A DNA stretch of 64,000 nucleotides from Psychrobacillus lasiicapitis (lineage in GTDB: Bacteria > Bacillota > Bacilli > Bacillales_A > Planococcaceae). This document shows, piece after piece, positions 3,739 through 48,894 of this stretch. The stretch is from assembly GCF_006861795.1 (NCBI RefSeq), contig NZ_VDGH01000001.1:1-64000 (forward strand), in the 5' to 3' direction. Under the pieces are notes generated by a model. It made no database searches. It had not been told where the DNA came from and saw only the letters and a list, made by a program, of their open reading frames with translations. Numbering within the stretch: the stretch's first letter is position 1; every line of letters begins with the position of its first letter. A program made the translations under genes and the position numbers.

Positions 3739-4946
3739 GTAAGAGGCGAAGCAATAGAACACTACGGAGAAATCGTCCTTTTATCTTCATCTGGATAGGT
3801 AACGTCATTTCCGAATTATGCGGTGCATTTGGAACTTTTAGTAATTCCATTCTAATTTATCAATTGACTAATTCGACGATGGCATTAGGTAGCATGTGGC
3901 TACTATATTTTATACCATCTCTTATTTTGCATTTATCTATTGGACCCTTTATCGATCGATGGAGTAGAAAATGGATCATGGTATTTTCACAGTGGACGCG
4001 GGGGATCATCTTCCTTATACCACTTGTTTCTTTAGCTAGTGGAAATCTTGAAGTGTGGCATATTTATACAGTCCAAATTATGGTGGGGCTAATCACGCCT
4101 ATTTATACACCTGCTAACCAAGCAATCACCCCGACAATTGTCTCGAAAGAACAATTAACGGAAGCGAATGCTTATATAGATGGAACCGTTCGATTAATGA
4201 CTTTTCTTGCTCCGATTTTAGGAGGGGTTGTCATTGAATATATAGGTGTAATACCTACTTTATTGTTTGTTTGCGGCACACTAATTACAAGCGGGACTCT
4301 TTTACTTTTTATTCATGAAAATAGAATTTCCATTAGTGTACGAAAATCTTGGATAGAACAATTTTCAGAAGGAATATCGTATTTCTTTAAGCAACGGCTT
4401 ATTGTTTGGTTAGGAATCTTTTTAGCATTCGTTCAATTTGGAGTAGGCGTGACAATGGTTGCTACCTTACCTTATATAACAAAAGAATTATCAGGAAGCT
4501 ACGCTGAATACGGCTATTTTATGGCCAGTTTTCCACTTGGCTATGTGATTGGGTCGATACTAGTAGGGAAAATAACATTTAAGAGTCGTAGAGTATTAAT
4601 GTTGGGAGCATTGGTGATCGGTGGTCTAACATTTATCGCGCTAGGATTTAACCATAGCATTATTTTGGGGATAGTCACGGAGTTAATTGCTGGAGTTGCG
4701 ATGGCTTTTTTCGGTGTCCATAACATTACGATATTTCAACAAACAGTTCCGAATGAATTGATGGGTAAAGTAGCTTCTGTCCGACTTTTCATTATAAGGG
4801 GGACAATGCCATTAGGTGTACTTGTTGGAGGGGTTTTGAGTGAACAATGGGGAATACGGCCACTTTATTTTTTAATCGGAACTATTATTTGTACCGTATC
4901 ATTACTGGGGATATTTCTTCCTTATTTTAGGTTTATGGATGATTAA
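3735..4946 (+). CDS. MFS transporter (putative exporter)
   Basis: This 403-residue integral membrane protein has about 12 hydrophobic segments. It has the MFS loop 2-3 motif region around PFIDRWSRKWIM and a repeat of it after helix 8. The N-terminus (RPFIFIWIGNVISELCGAFG) and overall pattern match the MFS_3 group of drug and siderophore exporters. Its ATG overlaps the stop of the ArsR-type gene, which makes a regulator-exporter pair. The substrate cannot be inferred. Confidence 0.82.
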   Translation: MSKRRSNRTLRRNRPFIFIWIGNVISELCGAFGTFSNSILIYQLTNSTMALGSMWLLYFIPSLILHLSIGPFIDRWSRKWIMVFSQWTRGIIFLIPLVSLASGNLEVWHIYTVQIMVGLITPIYTPANQAITPTIVSKEQLTEANAYIDGTVRLMTFLAPILGGVVIEYIGVIPTLLFVCGTLITSGTLLLFIHENRISISVRKSWIEQFSEGISYFFKQRLIVWLGIFLAFVQFGVGVTMVATLPYITKELSGSYAEYGYFMASFPLGYVIGSILVGKITFKSRRVLMLGALVIGGLTFIALGFNHSIILGIVTELIAGVAMAFFGVHNITIFQQTVPNELMGKVASVRLFIIRGTMPLGVLVGGVLSEQWGIRPLYFLIGTIICTVSLLGIFLPYFRFMDD

Positions 4947-4997
4947 ATCCTTTTCATAATTACTCGCTTTTAAGACAAGCTAACTAAAAGGAGTAAG

Positions 4998-5027
4998 ATG
5001 ATTAAATGGATAATAATTATGGATTAG
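4998..5027 (+). other. Nine-codon leader ORF in front of splB
   Basis: The best ribosome binding site in the splB leader (AAAGGAG at 4987-4993) serves not the splB ATG but an ATG at 4998 opening a nine-codon frame that stops at 5025-5027. The stop is in frame with splB and 12 bases upstream of its ATG. Coupled translation of splB from this leader is an inference. Confidence 0.4.
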
Positions 5028-5039
5028 GTTGTACGCATT

Positions 5040-6068
5040 ATGAATAAACCCTTCACACCGCAGCTTGTATATTTTGAGCCAAATTCACTTGATTATCCGC
5101 TTGGTAGAGAATTGAAAGAAAAATTCGAGAAAATGGGAATTGAAACACGATTTACGACTTCACATAACCAAATTCGGGATTTACCGGGTGAGACGGACGC
5201 TCAAAAATATCGTATTGCCAAATCTACCTTAGTTGTAGGCATACGAAAAACATTGAAATTCGATACGTCCAAGCCTTCAGCTGAGTATGCAATCCCGCTC
5301 GCAACAGGTTGTATGGGGCATTGCCATTATTGTTATTTACAGACGACGATGGGCAGCAAACCATATATTCGAACTTACGTAAACGTAGAGGAGATTTTGG
5401 AAGCAGCCGATCGCTATATCGAAGAACGTGCTCCAGAGATTACTCGATTCGAAGCCGCCTGTACATCCGATATTGTGGGAATTGACCATTTAACGCATTC
5501 ATTGAAAAGAGCAATTGAACATATTGGTCAAACAGAACTAGGTAGGCTACGTTTTGTAACGAAATTCCATTTTGTAGACCACTTGTTGGATGCCAAGCAT
5601 AATGGCAAGACACGATTCCGATTCAGTGTAAATGCTGATTATGTTATTAAAAACTTTGAACCCGGCACTTCTCCTCTCGATAAAAGAATTGAGGCTGCTG
5701 GTAAAGTGGCAAGAGCTGGCTACCCGCTTGGATTTATCATTGCTCCGATTTACCTTCATGATGGCTGGGAGGAAGGCTACCGGCACTTGTTTGAACGGCT
5801 AGACGAGGAATTGCCGCAAGATGCTAGAGAGGATATTACATTTGAATTTATTCAACATCGGTTTACGAAGCCCGCAAAAAAAGTGATTGAAAAGAATTAT
5901 CCAAAGACAAAATTGGAGTTAGATGAAGAAAAAAGACGCTACAAATGGGGCAAGTATGGAATCGGTAAGTATATTTACCAAAAGGACGAAGAGGAAGAAA
6001 TAAAATCTCATCTATACGGCTATATGGAAAAGTACTTTCCTAATGCCAAATTAGAATATTTTACTTGA
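5040..6068 (+). CDS. splB: Spore photoproduct lyase
   Basis: This 342-residue radical SAM enzyme reverses the spore photoproduct (5-thyminyl-5,6-dihydrothymine) in germinating spores. The [4Fe-4S] motif is visible as CMGHCHYC (C-x3-C-x2-C) near residue 90, in the family's ATGCMGHCHYCYLQTT context. The conserved EAACTSDIVGIDHLTHSL and the C-terminal PNAKLEYFT are also present. Length matches the family. An in-frame TAG at 5025 means ATG 5040 is the earliest ATG. In B. subtilis splB is expressed in the forespore under sigma G; I did not identify that promoter with confidence. The gene marks the host as a spore former. Confidence 0.95.
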   Translation: MNKPFTPQLVYFEPNSLDYPLGRELKEKFEKMGIETRFTTSHNQIRDLPGETDAQKYRIAKSTLVVGIRKTLKFDTSKPSAEYAIPLATGCMGHCHYCYLQTTMGSKPYIRTYVNVEEILEAADRYIEERAPEITRFEAACTSDIVGIDHLTHSLKRAIEHIGQTELGRLRFVTKFHFVDHLLDAKHNGKTRFRFSVNADYVIKNFEPGTSPLDKRIEAAGKVARAGYPLGFIIAPIYLHDGWEEGYRHLFERLDEELPQDAREDITFEFIQHRFTKPAKKVIEKNYPKTKLELDEEKRRYKWGKYGIGKYIYQKDEEEEIKSHLYGYMEKYFPNAKLEYFT

Positions 6069-9987: not shown

Positions 9988-10280
9988 AACAATAACTTAT
10001 TAGCGATGACGAGACGATTAGATAAGATGCAGCATTACAGAGACCCTTGGTTGGTGAAAAGAGGGATGGGAATTCTTATTGAAAAAAAACTCCGAGCTTC
10101 GTATGGAACTAAGCGGGTCTTAGGGATGCTACGACGGTTTCCTCCGTTACAGGGATAAGGTATCGCAAATGGCCGTACCTGATAAGGCTTGTTGAGTGAT
10201 CAATAAGCAAACTGAGGTGGTACCGCGAATTCAAACTCTCGCCCTCAAGATGAAAATCTTGGGAGGTGGGAGTTTTTTTA
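9988..10280 (+). promoter_or_regulatory. T-box riboswitch (tRNA-sensing leader), predicted lysine specificity
   Basis: The leader contains the canonical T-box core GAGGTGGTACCGCG at 10214-10227. It is followed by a terminator: a long stem from about 10235-10251 pairing with 10256-10272, then TTTTTTT at 10273-10279. Upstream, ACAGAGACCC and GGTTGGTGAAAAGAGGG match the AG-bulge and distal loop of stem I. The segment GGAACTAAGCGG fits the specifier loop, with AAG (lysine) at 10111-10113 as the likely specifier. T-box control of class I LysRS is known from Bacillus cereus. Uncharged tRNA should favour the antiterminator. Confidence 0.9.
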
Positions 10281-20221: not shown

Positions 20222-20408
20222 GGCAGTAAGACTCCCACTTCAAGATTTAAGAAAAGCGAAAAGATAAGTGGGAGATCAACTGCCCGTAAAAGCCCGAAGA
20301 AATGATCCCAGACTAAGTACGCAACATCGTGTTGCAACGTCTGTGTCACCCACATCGTGTGGGACACAACTAACAATCAGTGGGGGATGAAAAAAACCCC
20401 CACTGATC
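20222..20408. ncRNA. Cluster of hairpins: candidate structured RNA or mobile-element end
   Basis: Four hairpins occur in about 190 bases. The first has an outer stem GGCAGT/ACTGCC and an inner 9-bp stem CTCCCACTT/AAGTGGGAG. The second is GCAACA-TCG-TGTTGC (20321-20335). The third has inner stem CCCACA-TCG-TGTGGG and outer TGTGT/ACACA (20342-20368). The last is ATCAGTGGGGG with its perfect complement (20376-20407). Two hairpins share a TCG loop between stems of different sequence, a sign of RNA structure. No protein frame spans it. The last hairpin can also terminate the neighbouring reverse-strand operon. Confidence 0.5.
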
Positions 20409-42300: not shown

Positions 42301-42384
42301 TAATCATTATTTGTAGTGTAGTGTGAGTTATTTTGCGTGATTTTTTAATTTCCAAGTGTTATACTATGGTTTAATAGATGAATA

Positions 42385-42509
42385 ATCCTTCGGGGTCGGG
42401 TGAAATTCCCAATCGACGGTGATGAAGCAATTCTAAGCCCGTGAGCCTTTTTAAGGCAGGATTTGGTGCGAGTCCAAAGCCGACAGTATAGTCTGGATGG
42501 GAGAAGGAT
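42385..42509 (+). promoter_or_regulatory. FMN riboswitch (RFN element), copy 1
   Basis: The element shows the RFN consensus blocks in order: CTTCGGGGTCGGGTG, AAATTCCCAATCGACGGT, AGCCCGTGAGCC, GGCAGGATTTGGTG, GAGTCCAAAGCCGACAGT and GTCTGGATGGGAGAAGGAT, with closing CCTT/AAGG. It binds FMN and promotes the terminator at 42595-42629. A nearly identical copy follows 278 bases downstream. Confidence 0.95.
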
Positions 42510-42594
42510 GTGCAAGTATGCTTATTTCCTTATGGAGTGAAACTCACTCTAAAAGGTTTATTTAGTGATGCTTTTAACATGAATTTCCTAATCC

Positions 42595-42629
42595 ACCCCG
42601 TAGAGATACATCTATGGGGTTTTATTTTT
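42595..42629 (+). terminator. Terminator of FMN riboswitch copy 1
   Basis: ACCCCGTAGA (42595-42604) pairs with TCTATGGGGT (42611-42620) with one wobble, followed by TTTTATTTTT. It is the off-state of the first riboswitch. Confidence 0.85.
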
Positions 42630-42662
42630 GTCATAAAACCCAAAAATTTCATAAAAAATGTA

Positions 42663-42789
42663 TTCCTTCGGGGTCGGGTGAAATTCCCAATCGACGGTGA
42701 TGAAGCAATTCTAAGCCCGTGAGCCTTCTTTAAGGCAGGATTTGGTGTGAGTCCAAAGCCGACAGTATAGTCTGGATGGGAGAAGGATG
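42663..42789 (+). promoter_or_regulatory. FMN riboswitch (RFN element), copy 2
   Basis: This copy differs from copy 1 by only a few bases (one inserted base in the AAGGC hairpin and GTGCGAG to GTGTGAG). It directly precedes ribE. Its own terminator is at 42877-42911. Confidence 0.95.
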
Positions 42790-42876
42790 TACGAGCAAGC
42801 TTATTTTCCTTATGGGGTAAAAAAATACTCCTAAAAGGTTTATTTGTCGATGCGTAAAACATAATTTCCCAAAACT

Positions 42877-42911
42877 AACCCCTTAGAGTCGATCTATGGG
42901 GTTTTCTTTTT
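42877..42911 (+). terminator. Terminator of FMN riboswitch copy 2
   Basis: AACCCCTTAGA pairs with TCTATGGGGTT, followed by TTTCTTTTT. It ends 36 bases before the ribE start. Confidence 0.85.
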
Positions 42912-42946
42912 GAACAAAATTTCTTAGTAGAAAAGAGGTGTTGGGA

Positions 42947-43585
42947 ATGTTTACGGGAATTGTGGAAGACTTGGGTAAGGTTAAGACGATAAAAAGCGGT
43001 TCTAATAGTATGCAGTTAACATTAGAATCCAAAAAGATTGTAGAAGATATTCACTTAGGTGATAGTATCGCAGTAAATGGTGTATGTTTAACAGTCATTT
43101 CGTTTTCGGGCAATCTATTTACAGTCGATGTCATGCCAGAAACGGTGAAGTCTACAAGCATTCGTTCTTTACAAACTGGACATGTTGTTAATCTGGAGCG
43201 GGCAATGCCTGCAAATGGTCGATTTGGCGGTCACTTTGTTTCAGGGCATGTGGACGGAACGGGCGTTATCCTTCGTAAAAGAAAAGTGGAGAATGCCGTA
43301 TATGTGGACATCGGTATAAGTGAAGAATTGAGTAAATACTGCATGCTGAAAGGCTCCGTTGCAATCGACGGTATTAGTTTGACTATTTTCGATGTTCAAC
43401 CGAGACAGCTCACTGTTTCACTTATTCCACTTACATTTAGCGAAACAATTTTAGGTATAAAGAAAGAGCGGGATGTCGTCAATATTGAAAATGATTTACT
43501 TGGCAAATATGTGATCAATCATATAGAGCAAAAGAAAGTTAATTCGTCGATAACGATGGATTTTTTAAGACAAAATGGATTTTAA
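42947..43585 (+). CDS. ribE: Riboflavin synthase alpha chain
   Basis: This 212-residue protein has two lumazine-binding repeats: MFTGIVEDLGKVKTI with GDSIAVNGVCLTV, then GHFVSGHVDGTGVI with GSVAIDGISLTIF. It dismutates two 6,7-dimethyl-8-ribityllumazine molecules to riboflavin. ATG 42947 follows AGAGGTG. Length is normal. It is the first gene after the tandem FMN riboswitches; ribD, which usually comes first, is absent. Confidence 0.94.
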   Translation: MFTGIVEDLGKVKTIKSGSNSMQLTLESKKIVEDIHLGDSIAVNGVCLTVISFSGNLFTVDVMPETVKSTSIRSLQTGHVVNLERAMPANGRFGGHFVSGHVDGTGVILRKRKVENAVYVDIGISEELSKYCMLKGSVAIDGISLTIFDVQPRQLTVSLIPLTFSETILGIKKERDVVNIENDLLGKYVINHIEQKKVNSSITMDFLRQNGF

Positions 43586-43611: not shown

Positions 43612-44238
43612 ATGTTTCATTCAATTGAGGAAGCAGTAGAAGATCTAAAAAAAGGGAAAATCATTATTGTAGTAGATGATGAGGATCGAGAAAATGAGGG
43701 AGATTTCCTTGTGTTGGCAGATTACGCGACACCGGAAAATATAAACTTTATGGCAACACATGGCCGTGGTCTGATTTGTACACCTATAACTAAACAGTTA
43801 GCAGGTCGTCTAGATTTAAATCCGATGGTAGAGCATAACACGGACAATCATCAAACGGCTTTTACTGTTAGTGTCGACTACAAAACAACAGACACTGGAA
43901 TAAGTGCATTTGAGCGTTCGGAAACCATTTTACAATTGTTAAATGCAAAATCGGTGAGTTCCGATTTCCGTCGTCCCGGGCATGTATTTCCACTTATTGC
44001 AAAAGATAACGGAGTGCTGGAACGTCCAGGTCACACCGAGGCAGCGGTCGATTTTGCAAAACTTTGTGGCGTACAAGCCGCAGGAGTTATTTGTGAAATT
44101 ATGAGTGCAGATGGTTCCATGGCAAGAGTTCCAGAATTACATACTATTGCAGAGATGCACGATTTGAAATTCGTGACGATAGAGGCGTTAGTGAACTATC
44201 GTTCTAAAGAGGAATCGAGTAGTAAAGCGACAGTTTAA
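43612..44238 (+). CDS. ribB: 3,4-dihydroxy-2-butanone-4-phosphate synthase, stand-alone
   Basis: This 208-residue enzyme forms the four-carbon precursor of lumazine from ribulose 5-phosphate. Signatures are [14 protein letters not shown] near residue 25, [35 protein letters not shown] and [14 protein letters not shown]. Bacillus usually has a RibBA fusion of about 400 residues; here the protein ends at the domain junction and ribH follows 36 bp later, so GTP cyclohydrolase II is missing from the operon. Confidence 0.93.
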
Positions 44239-44274: not shown

Positions 44275-44739
44275 ATGGGTAAAGTATTTGAAGCAACGTT
44301 AATTGGTACAGATTTAAAAGTTGGGATTGTGGTAGGAAGATTTAATGAATTTATCAATGGAAAATTATTAGATGGTGCAATGGATGGTTTGAAACGTCAC
44401 GGAGTATCAGAAGAAAATGTCGATGTTGCATGGGTACCAGGTGCATTTGAAGTACCTTTTATCGCTAAAAAAATGGCTGAAACGAAAAAATACGATGCCA
44501 TTATCGGCTTAGGTTCTGTTATTCGAGGTTCTACTACGCACTATGATTATGTGTGTAATGAAACTGCGAAAGGCATCGCAAGTGTAGGTTTATCAACTGG
44601 TGTTCCAGTGATGTTTGGTGTTGTTACGACGGAAACGATTGAACAGGCGATCGAACGTGCTGGTACTAAAGCTGGAAACAAAGGCTATGACGCTGCGGTA
44701 TCTGCTATAGAAATGGCAAATTTGAATCGTTTATTTTAA
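44275..44739 (+). CDS. ribH: 6,7-dimethyl-8-ribityllumazine synthase
   Basis: This 154-residue protein condenses the ribB product with the pyrimidine precursor. Family motifs are [51 protein letters not shown] and [15 protein letters not shown], with the catalytic histidine in THYDYV. Normal length; it ends the operon before a strong terminator. Confidence 0.95.
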
Positions 44740-45169: not shown

Positions 45170-46153
45170 ATGAATCATTTAAAAGGAATACACCATGTCA
45201 CAGCGATTACCAGCAGTGCAGAAAAGAATTATGAGTTTTTTACCTATGTATTAGGTATGCGTTTAGTAAAGAAAACAGTCAATCAGGATGATATTCAGAC
45301 ATATCACTTATTTTTTGCAGATGATAAAGGGTCGGCTGGCACAGATATGACATTCTTCGATTTTCCAGGTATTCCAAAAGGAACACATGGCACGAACGAA
45401 ATTTATAAAACAGCTTTCCGCGTTCCAACTGATGCAGCACTAGATTACTGGGTAAAACGTTTTAATAAGTATGAGGTTAAAAATTCGGGTATTGAAGAAG
45501 TATTCGGTAAGAAAACTATTTCATTTGTCGACTTTGATGATCAGCAATATATGTTAGTTTCAGATGAGTTTAACGAGGGTATTGCATCTGGGACACCTTG
45601 GCAAAATGGACCAGTACCACTTGAATTTGCGATTACAGGTTTAGGACCTATTCATATTCGTATTGCACAATTTGATTATTTCAAAGAGGTTTTGGAAAAA
45701 GTAATGTTAATGCGTGAAATAGCACAAGAAGGTTCCCTACATTTGTTTGAGGTCGGAGAAGGGGGAAATGGCGCACAAGTAATTGTGGAACATAATACGA
45801 CTTTTCCAGCAGGACGACAAGGTTATGGTACAGTACATCACGCAGCTTTCCGCGTAGAAAATACAAAAGTACTGTATGAGTGGATTGACCATATGCAAGC
45901 AGCTGGTTTTGGTACTTCGGGATATGTGGATCGCTTCTTTTTTGAATCTTTATATGCACGTGTGGCACCTGGTATTCTATTTGAATGGGCAACAGATGGT
46001 CCAGGATTTATGGGCGATGAACCTTACGAAACAGTAGGAGAAATTTTATCGTTACCACCATTCCTTGAAGGAAAACGCGAACAAATTGAAGCATCCGTGC
46101 GACCAATTAATACAGTACGTAGCACACGAAATATCCAAAAAGAGTACTTGTAA
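45170..46153 (+). CDS. Ring-cleaving dioxygenase/glyoxalase (MhqO-like), paralogue 1
   Basis: This 327-residue protein has two vicinal-oxygen-chelate halves. The first begins GIHHVTAITSSAEKNYEFFT with KKTVNQDD and YHLFFADDKGSAGTDMTFFD; the second has GTVHHAAFRVENTKVL and RFFFESLYARVAPGILFEWA. Histidines and glutamate of the metal site are present (HH, H, E). MhqO-type proteins detoxify catechols and 2-methylhydroquinone. It is the first gene after the MhqR-type operator. Confidence 0.85.
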   Translation: MNHLKGIHHVTAITSSAEKNYEFFTYVLGMRLVKKTVNQDDIQTYHLFFADDKGSAGTDMTFFDFPGIPKGTHGTNEIYKTAFRVPTDAALDYWVKRFNKYEVKNSGIEEVFGKKTISFVDFDDQQYMLVSDEFNEGIASGTPWQNGPVPLEFAITGLGPIHIRIAQFDYFKEVLEKVMLMREIAQEGSLHLFEVGEGGNGAQVIVEHNTTFPAGRQGYGTVHHAAFRVENTKVLYEWIDHMQAAGFGTSGYVDRFFFESLYARVAPGILFEWATDGPGFMGDEPYETVGEILSLPPFLEGKREQIEASVRPINTVRSTRNIQKEYL

Positions 46154-46171: not shown

Positions 46172-46774
46172 ATGGGATTTTTAAGTAAATTATTTGGAAC
46201 ACAACAACAACCTGAGGAGGAAAAAACAATGACAAAATCAAATATAGGTATTATTTTAGGTTCAACACGTGAAGGACGCGTAAGTCCACAAGTAGGAGCA
46301 TGGGTAAAAGAATTAGCAGATAAACGCGGAGACGCAAACTACACAATTATCGATATCGCAGATTACAAATTACCACTTTTAGGTGAAGCAGGCGGCGACG
46401 CATCTGGCGCAGCAGCATGGTCAGAAATCATCGCAAAACAAGACGGATTCGTATTCATCGTTCAAGAATACAATCACTCAATCACAGGAGCACTTAAAAA
46501 TGCATTAGATTACTTACGTGAAGAGTGGAACAACAAAGCAGCAGGTATCGTGTCTTACGGTTCTGTAGGTGGAGCTCGTGCAACAGAACATTTACGTGGT
46601 ATTTTAAGTGAATTGTTAGTAGCACACGTACGTGTACATCCTGCATTGTCATTATTTACAGACTTCGAAAACGGTACAGATTTCAAACCAGCTGCAGTTC
46701 AAGCAGATTCAGTAAACCAAATGTTAGACCAAGTGATTCCTTGGACAAATGCACTAAATACAGTTCGTAAATAA
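46172..46774 (+). CDS. NAD(P)H-dependent flavin/quinone reductase
   Basis: This flavodoxin-fold protein of the NADPH-dependent FMN reductase family has IGIILGSTREGRVSPQVGAW as phosphate-binding loop, PLLGEAGGDASG, VFIVQEYNHSITGALKNALD and GIVSYGSVGGARATEHLRGI. It would reduce quinones or azo compounds, matching the detoxification operon. Two in-frame starts have ribosome sites: ATG 46172 (AAGGAGGTG, spacing 11) and ATG 46229 (GAGGAGG, spacing 8). The longer form adds 19 residues (MGFLSKLFGT onward); the shorter matches usual length better. Confidence 0.85.
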   Translation: MGFLSKLFGTQQQPEEEKTMTKSNIGIILGSTREGRVSPQVGAWVKELADKRGDANYTIIDIADYKLPLLGEAGGDASGAAAWSEIIAKQDGFVFIVQEYNHSITGALKNALDYLREEWNNKAAGIVSYGSVGGARATEHLRGILSELLVAHVRVHPALSLFTDFENGTDFKPAAVQADSVNQMLDQVIPWTNALNTVRK

Positions 46775-46935: not shown

Positions 46936-47877
46936 ATGAATAAAATAGCAGGACATCATCATATTTCGATGATTACAAAAAAAGGACAACAAAACAATCA
47001 GTTTTATCAAAATGTACTTGGACTTCGGAGAGTGAAAAAAACGGTCAATCAAGATGATCCAAGTATGTATCATCTATTTTATGGAGACTTAACAGGAAGT
47101 GCAGGAACAGAGCTGTCTTTTTTTGAAATGCCCATGGCAGGAAGGACAAAAAGAGGAACCAATGCTATTACGCGAATTGGTTTGCTCGTCCCTTCTTATG
47201 ATAGCTTACTATATTGGAAGAAAAGGTTTGAATTACTAGATGTGCAACATGGGGAGTTAACTATGTATGCAGGACGTGAAGCCCTACATTTTGAAGATTG
47301 TGAGGGACTTCGACTGGTCCTTCTAAATAATAACGGCGACGCAGTGCCGGAATATTGGCAGTCTTGGGATGATTCAATTGTTTTAAGTGAGCATCGTATC
47401 CTTGGAATGGGTGCTGTGGAAATGACGGTACGATCACTTGATAGCTTAGCGAGTACATTAGAGAACCTCTTCGGGTATAAGCTTGCTTCCCGAAATGAAA
47501 ACGAAACTATCTACCAGTCAATAAAAGGACAGGCTTTGGGTGAAATTGTTATTGTAGAACAAGATGGTCCACCAGAAAAACCAGGAAAAGGCAGTATACA
47601 TCATCTAGCTATCCGAGTAAAAGATAGTGAAGAGCTACATCAGTGGGAGCAGCGTATTCAAGACTTTGGATTTGAGGTAATAAAAATTACTGACCGTTAC
47701 TATTTCGAGAGCTTATATTTTAGAGAGAAAAACGGGATATTATTTGAGTTGGCAACTGATGGACCAGGATTTACAGTAGATTCTTCTATTGAATCACTTG
47801 GTAAAAAGCTAGATTTGCCGCCATTTCTAGAAGCCAAACGTGCAGAGATAGAGGCAAAACTAGAACACATTGAGTAA
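46936..47877 (+). CDS. Ring-cleaving dioxygenase/glyoxalase (MhqO-like), paralogue 2
   Basis: This 313-residue paralogue of the proteins at 45170 and 47953 has the same two-half layout: AGHHHISMITKKGQQNNQFY with KKTVNQDDPSMYHLFYGDL, then GSIHHLAIRVKDSEELHQWE and RYYFESLYFREKNGILFELA. Metal-site histidines and glutamate are present. It is closer to paralogue 1 than to paralogue 3 in the first half. It lies behind GGGGAGG. Confidence 0.83.
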   Translation: MNKIAGHHHISMITKKGQQNNQFYQNVLGLRRVKKTVNQDDPSMYHLFYGDLTGSAGTELSFFEMPMAGRTKRGTNAITRIGLLVPSYDSLLYWKKRFELLDVQHGELTMYAGREALHFEDCEGLRLVLLNNNGDAVPEYWQSWDDSIVLSEHRILGMGAVEMTVRSLDSLASTLENLFGYKLASRNENETIYQSIKGQALGEIVIVEQDGPPEKPGKGSIHHLAIRVKDSEELHQWEQRIQDFGFEVIKITDRYYFESLYFREKNGILFELATDGPGFTVDSSIESLGKKLDLPPFLEAKRAEIEAKLEHIE

Positions 47878-47952: not shown

Positions 47953-48894
47953 ATGATGAAAAAACAAACTGCTGGCATCCACCATATTACAGCAATCGTA
48001 GGTCACCCACAGGAAAATATTGATTTTTATGCAGGAATATTAGGCTTACGTCTAGTTAAACAAACAGTAAACTTCGATGATCCTGGAACATACCATCTAT
48101 ACTTTGGAGATGGTGGTGGTAAGCCAGGTACAATTATTACGTTTTTCCCTTGGGCAAATGCGTATCAGGGACAAATTGGAGACGGTCAAGTAGGTGTCAC
48201 AACGTATGTTGTACCAACAGGATCATTAAGTTTTTGGATCAATCGTCTCGCTACATTTGCGATTCCATTTAAAAAGGCGGAGCGTTTTGGTGAGCAAGTG
48301 ATTCAATTTGACGATCCACATGGCTTACATTTAGAGCTTGTTGAACGTGCAGAAGGTGAACAAAACAACTGGACATTCGGCGGAGTAACACCGGAAGTTG
48401 CGATTAAAGGCTTTGGCGGAGCAACACTTTATTCTACCAGACCAGAGGAGACTGCTAAAACCTTAACGGAGGTAATGGGGCTTGAATTGGCGGGCACTGA
48501 AGGTGATTATTCACGCTTTAAAGCTGCGGCAGATATTGGTAATATCATTGATGTAAAAATGGTAACAGGTGGAAGAGGCTCAATGGGTGTCGGTACTGTT
48601 CATCATATTGCATGGCGCGCCAAAGATGATACAGATCATCTAGAGTGGCAGCAGTATGCGATGAGACATGGTCAACATGTAACCGAAGTAAAAGACCGCA
48701 ATTATTTCAACGCACTATACTTCCGTGAGTCAGGCGAAATACTATTTGAAATTGCAACAGACCCACCGGGATTTGCACATGATGAAACAATTGAATCTAT
48801 GGGGACTCAGCTAATGTTACCTATTCAATACGAACAACACCGTGAGCAATTAGTTAATTCACTTATCCCAATTCAAGTGCGCCCAATCGATTAA
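47953..48894 (+). CDS. Ring-cleaving dioxygenase/glyoxalase (MhqO-like), paralogue 3
   Basis: This 313-residue protein reads GIHHITAIVGHPQENIDFYA, VKQTVNFDDPGTYHLYFGDG and PGTIITFFPW in the first half, and GTVHHIAWRAKDDTDHLEWQ with NYFNALYFRESGEILFEIAT in the second. Of the three paralogues it looks nearest to typical MhqO/MhqA of bacilli. AAGGAGG precedes it. It ends the operon before a long bidirectional hairpin. Confidence 0.86.
   Translation: MMKKQTAGIHHITAIVGHPQENIDFYAGILGLRLVKQTVNFDDPGTYHLYFGDGGGKPGTIITFFPWANAYQGQIGDGQVGVTTYVVPTGSLSFWINRLATFAIPFKKAERFGEQVIQFDDPHGLHLELVERAEGEQNNWTFGGVTPEVAIKGFGGATLYSTRPEETAKTLTEVMGLELAGTEGDYSRFKAAADIGNIIDVKMVTGGRGSMGVGTVHHIAWRAKDDTDHLEWQQYAMRHGQHVTEVKDRNYFNALYFRESGEILFEIATDPPGFAHDETIESMGTQLMLPIQYEQHREQLVNSLIPIQVRPID

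Follow-up and report, generated by a model that had tools for sequence, protein, structure and literature searches.

Two complete FMN riboswitches in tandem upstream of ribE-ribB-ribH in Psychrobacillus lasiicapitis, and variation of such arrays among its relatives

The riboflavin synthesis genes ribE-ribB-ribH of Psychrobacillus lasiicapitis were preceded by a leader containing two complete FMN riboswitches, each made up of an aptamer and an expression platform, with no gene between them. This doublet is real and well formed, and tandem FMN riboswitches of its kind are already in print. It is very probably pseudo-cooperative, two complete and independent riboswitches attenuating transcription of ribE-ribB-ribH in series, in an array that probably arose via unequal crossing-over. 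In the window, i.e. the whole 64-kb stretch of DNA analysed here, Infernal searches with Rfam 15 (gathering threshold 66.2 bits) gave two RF00050 matches and no more, and the sole listed open reading frame of at least 80 amino acids in the leader was a mechanical one on the opposite strand. The features of the leader and the genes behind it were as follows.

42357..42365, + strand: extended -10 promoter motif TGTTATACT, likely the sole promoter of the leader, recognized by eye and by comparison
42382..42512, + strand: FMN riboswitch aptamer 1 (RF00050, 114.8 bits, E 5e-26, model 1-138)
42391..42396, + strand: CGGGGU of aptamer 1 (end of the P1 5′ strand and J1/2), predicted 5′ strand of antiterminator 1 from partial-length folds; duplex with the terminator 5′ arm, -12.4 kcal/mol
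42595..42620, + strand: intrinsic terminator 1, hairpin of -16.0 kcal/mol, T tract to about 42630
42660..42791, + strand: FMN riboswitch aptamer 2 (RF00050, 112.7 bits, E 1.9e-25, model 1-138)
42669..42674, + strand: CGGGGU of aptamer 2, predicted 5′ strand of antiterminator 2, its GGGGU pairing with ACCCC at 42878-42882; duplex of -10.6 kcal/mol
42877..42903, + strand: intrinsic terminator 2, hairpin of -13.0 kcal/mol with one U-U mismatch, T tract to 42911
42929..42940, + strand: AGAAAAGAGGTG, likely ribosome-binding site of ribE judging by its position past both terminators
42947..43585, + strand: ribE, riboflavin synthase (TIGR00187, 252.8 bits versus a cut-off of 156.6)
43612..44238, + strand: ribB, 3,4-dihydroxy-2-butanone-4-phosphate synthase without the RibA half (TIGR00506, 255.4 bits versus a cut-off of 177.45)
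44275..44739, + strand: ribH, lumazine synthase (TIGR00114, 194.9 bits versus a cut-off of 84.6)

A preliminary description of this DNA had reported a unit of about 278 bases, comprising aptamer, platform and terminator, repeated head to tail at 42385-42911, with near-identical aptamers. The coordinates were right, and the Infernal check that it had proposed returned two full-length hits far over the threshold; both terminators were located, and the unit recurred at 278-282 nt. Identity between the aptamers extended over 127 of 132 aligned columns, that between the whole units over 222 of 259 (86%). The five aptamer differences lay at both ends, at one outer P1 base and at two variable loop positions; none fell on an upper-case position of the Rfam consensus, the conserved core being the same in both, and the outermost P1 pair was broken in aptamer 2. 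A simple terminator scan of the window reported terminator 1 and not terminator 2, which was probably missed because of its U-U mismatch.

Folding and comparison together predict how the antiterminator pairs and in which direction the switch works, and the ligand would be FMN by analogy with the known chemistry of the family. At low FMN, the 5′ (C)GGGGU of each aptamer would be available for pairing with ACCCC(G) in the terminator 5′ arm, so blocking the terminator, and RNA polymerase would read through both units. At high FMN, each aptamer would close P1 and hold this 5′ strand, the terminator would form, and transcripts leaking past terminator 1 would then face terminator 2. The earlier reading that both switches must be free of FMN for full read-through agrees with this predicted direction. 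When the leader was truncated at 42606 or 42612, its minimum-energy fold had CGGGGU at 42391-42396 paired with ACCCCG at 42595-42600; this pairing was absent in the fold cut at 42598 and in the complete unit 1. The antiterminator 2 pairing was likewise present in folds cut at 42886 and 42892. In unconstrained folds of the complete units 1 and 2, the terminator formed even without P1, and the antiterminator was obtained only if the leader was cut before the 3′ arm. Since the full folds hold the terminator, the decision must fall during transcription; and because the pairing uses bases in or beside the P1 5′ strand, the FMN-bound aptamer should be incompatible with the antiterminator.

The same complementarity was surveyed in 156 units of tandem arrays in the fetched loci, with 59 hairpins of the window as controls. 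A terminator was found 30-130 nt after the complete aptamer in 143 of the 156 units. Pairing of the aptamer 5′ strand with the 5′ arm of its own terminator had a median of -9.9 kcal/mol in these 143 units versus -5.0 in the 59 controls (Mann-Whitney P 6e-12). A duplex of -6 kcal/mol or lower was possible in 121 units versus 22 control hairpins, complementarity being weak, i.e. above this threshold, in the other 22 units, and a C/T-rich word complementary to GGGG was present in 116/143 versus 7/59. The GGGG of J1/2 is nearly invariant, so that covariation adds nothing to this comparison. Covariation of P1 was scored in 126 units, with 7 skipped, and two pairs co-changed (C-G/U-A, and the outermost A-U/G-C); this line of evidence was set aside, as C-A mismatches occurred in 28 and 25 units at two positions, possibly by an alignment slip from simple slicing.

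A motif of the form TGnTATnnT was found within 45 nt upstream of 43 of 64 first units, the remaining 21 being without it, versus 1 of 64 last units, and an extended -10 motif was seen by eye in all 13 of the aligned first-unit upstream regions. In the window, TGTTATACT had no -35 match and was not reported by the consensus promoter scan. A second promoter between the units was considered and rejected, as no motif preceded unit 2 of the window and last units carried it in the single case just given. Because the promoter motif precedes unit 1 and none precedes unit 2, both units most likely lie on one transcript, on which the two terminators would be encountered in series.

The window's two FMN switches were accompanied in the genome by a third (G000:C1:453325-453460) and no others; the third adjoined a membrane-protein gene whose matches to ECF transporter S components were weak, lying below the cut-off. 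The genes ribA and ribD lay together on another contig, away from ribE-ribB-ribH, with reading frames at 4021-5878 on the minus strand of locus L058 (G000:C24:48000-58000). No FMN switch was found by Rfam in the 10 kb around them, and the gap of about 760 nt before ribA had no Rfam match; a T-box was located downstream of ribA/ribD, at 2288-2516 of L058. Elsewhere in the window, a T-box leader (9997-10249, 99.7 bits) and a Bacillaceae-1 RNA (20297-20363, 68.7 bits) were found, the latter belonging to a family for which we know of no function. Downstream of ribH were three genes resembling one another (45170-46153, 46936-47877 and 47953-48894) with the appearance of ring-cleavage dioxygenases (VOC), and between them a reductase-like gene (46172-46774), all judged by the look of their sequences.

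The window RibE was closer to those of Neobacillus novalis (87%), Rummeliibacillus (82%) and Lederbergia (77-78%) than to that of P. psychrotolerans (62%). In a RibE tree of 62 rows, the label Psychrobacillus required 5 changes, 3 of them forced by starred branches, and the window fell in a starred 17-row group (96/96) with Neobacillus novalis, Lederbergia, Rummeliibacillus and g14. Because the tree scatters Psychrobacillus over separate places, switches and rib genes may have moved jointly between genera, for example by exchange with Neobacillus, Lederbergia and Rummeliibacillus.

An array was defined as at least two matches over the cut-off on one strand within about 420 nt, and tallies were read by eye. 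By this definition, arrays occurred in 109 of 261 genomes and 13 of 19 genera of the family, searches of more than 40 genomes at once having been run with stricter filters by which weak matches were lost. The preliminary description had held that FMN riboswitches normally occur singly, which is correct in general and fails for this family, doublets and triplets also being in print. Within the genus, 17 of 19 genomes had an array, and in the rest of the family the batches gave 31/50, 26/51, 29/58, 6/40 and 0/43. The family arrays comprised 93 doublets, 12 triplets, one with three full copies and one partial (G069, in which the partial copy is the third), two of four (G065 and G067) and one of five (G052), with a spacing of 190 to 377 nt among doublets and triplets. 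Hits 592 nt apart in G238 and 1058 nt apart in G004 were not counted as arrays. The five intact switches of G052 (L078, 821-1745, Rfam-confirmed) were spaced at 201-202 nt, the four of G065 (L079, 797-1517) and of G067 (L080, 785-1504) at about 201 nt, and all three arrays preceded ribD-ribE-ribB. The two genus members without an array, G134 and G135, had no match to the window RibH, yet had ribA and ribD matches; they are possibly riboflavin auxotrophs with leftover early-pathway genes. Both genomes were 99% complete and carried one FMN switch each.

Among the best 80 of 488 named ribE loci, some of them from the same genomes as above, 18 had at least two intact switches, one had a single switch plus a remnant, 60 had one switch (two of these split by a long loop), and one had none in the sequence covered. 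The remnant, of 31 bits, stood at the place of unit 2 in Rummeliibacillus suwonensis (L123 1643-1725), where Rfam at E <= 0.01 gave the full switch only; it is perhaps decay in progress. Weak pairs in G085, G091, G100, G102 and G180 were considered as a variant tandem class and rejected, because the upstream hit covered the first half of the model and the downstream hit the second, so that each pair resembles a single aptamer interrupted by a very long variable-loop insert. In L092-L096, FMN aptamers were apparently split by a variable-loop insert of roughly 150-285 nt, giving two weak part matches, and G109 had a similar weak pair.

The preliminary description had taken the high identity of the repeats as a sign of recent duplication. 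This did not survive comparison with relatives: the two platforms of the window were 68-72% alike, whereas each shared 84-94% identity with its positional counterpart in G137, OK032 and P. soli. Compared as 250-nt units, unit 1 was 95% identical to unit 1 and unit 2 was 96% identical to unit 2 of the nearest relative, G137, versus 83% between the neighbours in the window; on these sequences, therefore, the doublet predates the strain and is neither a strain event nor an assembly artefact. Two aptamers and two terminators were found to be kept in G137, G141 and G131. The more distant FJAT-22090 had no positional platform match to the window (72 and 61%). The platform tree placed the window's first platform with the first one of G137 (98/99) and its last platform with the last ones of G137, G141 and G131 (98/95). 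A separate starred group (97/100) was made up of the last platforms of N. novalis, MM2020_4, FJAT-49711, G143, G144 and G132 (long branch). The first platform of G143 (long branch) was placed inside the window's group, with other first platforms around it (88/98). As read from these trees, the positional history is not simple. One origin of the positional units for the wider clade of the window (16 arrays) was rejected for aptamers (p-AU 0.019) and, with all 16 first platforms constrained to a single clade, for platforms (p-AU 0.0016), and the claim was therefore narrowed to the four-species group of the window and a six-genome Psychrobacillus clade.

When first and last units were compared in 63 arrays, some from outside the family, platforms were positional in 58, concerted in 3 and mixed in 2, a count favoured towards the positional answer by the choice of nearest relative on platform identity; aptamers were concerted in 25, positional in 21 and mixed in 17. 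Site patterns were then expressed as concerted/positional/third, with gap columns excluded and the counts summed over pairs that are not independent. In the six-genome clade (G125, G129, G130, G136, G138 and G140; 15 pairs), they were 43/6/6 for aptamers and 1/443/2 for platforms, or 8/4/4 and 1/46/1 in distinct columns; a single clade of all first aptamers was rejected (p-AU 0.007), while the first platforms formed a clade (100/100). The corresponding aptamer and platform patterns were 30/1/0 and 7/16/6 in g16, 22/0/1 and 8/27/12 in g9, 4/1/1 and 2/9/0 in g14, and 8/1/0 and 6/3/0 in g10; g16 and g9 leaned the same way as the six-genome clade. They were 27/225/33 and 32/1198/21 in ten Lysinibacillus-type arrays, 4/18/0 and 2/101/3 in g19, and 7/7/0 (mixed) and 0/89/2 in the window's quartet. 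Homogenisation of aptamers as a general rule was ruled out by the positional Lysinibacillus-type arrays and g19 and by the mixed quartet. These patterns indicate that in some genera the aptamers of an array are homogenised while the platforms keep their position, a finding new here. Between genera (1719 pairs), both parts were mostly concerted (aptamers 35963/591/505, platforms 26070/6494/5025), so that separate origins of arrays in different genera are possible.

If aptamer 2 of one copy crossed over with aptamer 1 of a second copy, the platform order would become 1, 1, 2, and the gene-proximal platform would never be doubled. Units with incomplete aptamers or unread letters were left out of the counts, hence 17 of 18 listed arrays of at least three units were used, the partial copy of G069 having no platform to compare. 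In 12 of these 17, the non-last platforms were 82-100% alike and 43-70% like the last, which is also new here; such copying of the first platform was absent in G018, G062, G025, G026 and Lederbergia citrisecunda. A further new observation was made in the triplet of G138 (L074), where the middle unit combined a last-unit aptamer with a first-unit platform, the switch-over lying at the aptamer end. Unequal crossing-over inside the aptamers is suggested, since it explains copy number, platform order and aptamer homogenisation together and the middle unit of G138 fits it. In the window's lineage, the platform of unit 2 is of the unit 1 type while six other arrays keep a distinct last platform; a copy of the first unit has therefore probably taken the place of an older second one, probably before the split from G137, G141 and G131.

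Homogenised aptamers might instead reflect selection acting in parallel on the aptamers of individual genomes, or duplications that took place separately in each genus, without recombination in old arrays. Aptamers are strongly constrained and would all have to bind the same ligand, the concerted patterns of both parts between genera would suit several separate origins, and the Lysinibacillus-type arrays and g19 have positional aptamers. This account is nevertheless rather unlikely in view of the six-genome clade, where platforms and aptamers gave opposite patterns and the shared differences include variable loops, and of the G138 middle unit, which flips from last-unit to first-unit match. 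Recombination is therefore preferred, and we lean, by a modest degree, to FMN arrays as an evolving copy-number device. Aptamers would serve as crossover sites that add first-platform units, the last platform would stay unique, aptamers would be homogenised in some lineages, and lineages would tune the depth of riboflavin repression with between one and five attenuators, no new sequence being needed; the window's doublet would be one state of the cycle.

As to function, only one unit might work in the cell, the other being a relic with its sequence kept by chance. The weaker, mismatched terminator 2 and the broken P1 pair of aptamer 2 would fit such a relic, as would the decayed copies of relatives (the Rummeliibacillus suwonensis remnant and the partial copy of G069). 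Decay elsewhere, however, shows as low scores, whereas both window aptamers exceeded 112 bits; moreover, their five differences are confined to the ends, outer P1 and variable loops, and both aptamers and both terminators are kept in G137, G141 and G131, which together make a lone working unit improbable. It is still less probable that the aptamers cooperate in binding or fold as one, as in glycine riboswitches: they are near-identical, share the GGGGU/ACCCC code and could mispair across units, but a complete terminator stands between them, so that aptamer 2 is made only after the decision of unit 1, and in most arrays the platforms have diverged, with the spacing of doublets and triplets as variable as given above. 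A duplication artefact of assembly or strain, which the aptamer identity might suggest, can be dismissed almost entirely, since the two platforms differ in sequence, both have positional counterparts in other assemblies, and arrays also occur in genomes listed with one contig (G132, G136, G139 and others). Two independent attenuators in series thus remain the preferred reading of the doublet.

The gain from a second unit was estimated with a static model of two independent attenuators, in which the 10-90% range was 40-49-fold versus 81-fold for one (leak 0-10%), the half-maximum lay at 0.41-0.47 K, and the leak was squared. Of the steeper, tighter response expected in the preliminary description, the tighter part stood as the main effect, and the steeper part applied only slightly. 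In this model, the gain would be mainly a deeper OFF state with slight steepening, at the cost of a lower ON state.

Tandem FMN riboswitches of the same class, before the same operon, have been described in Bacillota. In the parts of the sources consulted, ribE, ribB and ribH of Bacillota are given as controlled by FMN FMN (87%) or FMN FMN FMN (13%) (PMC12452182), and 31 FMN doublets and four triplets are on record (PMC9481103). As far as these parts go, the arrays are doublets and triplets only, whereas relatives in the present study reached four (G065, G067) and five (G052). Psychrobacillus and Lysinibacillus, and the words duplication and recombination, were absent from the main texts of both papers. 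Compared with the common layout of a single FMN riboswitch before the rib operon, the window shares aptamer, platform and riboflavin operon and differs in having two units instead of one and in that ribD and ribA lie elsewhere in its genome. Tandem arrangements of classes other than glycine were described as far less common in the portion seen of an earlier report (PMC2258182). Tandem TPP riboswitches, of which that of Bacillus anthracis is an example, are likewise complete attenuators in series for one ligand, with another ligand and other genes. In the portion seen of PMC9481103, tandem TPP riboswitches are called 'pseudo-cooperative' and more 'digital'. Literature searches gave no report of FMN arrays of four or five and no paper on riboswitches with Psychrobacillus; those combining tandem riboswitches with unequal crossing gave none, those on concerted evolution no riboswitch-array titles, and those on gene conversion introns only.

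In itself, the doublet is a further instance of attenuators for a single ligand placed in series; its interest lies in the comparison with relatives, in which arrays reach four and five units and aptamers bear signs of internal recombination. Related genomes with between one and five units offer a natural dose series for the value of extra attenuators, and the differing histories of aptamers and platforms provide a testable account of the birth, growth and shrinkage of tandem riboswitches.
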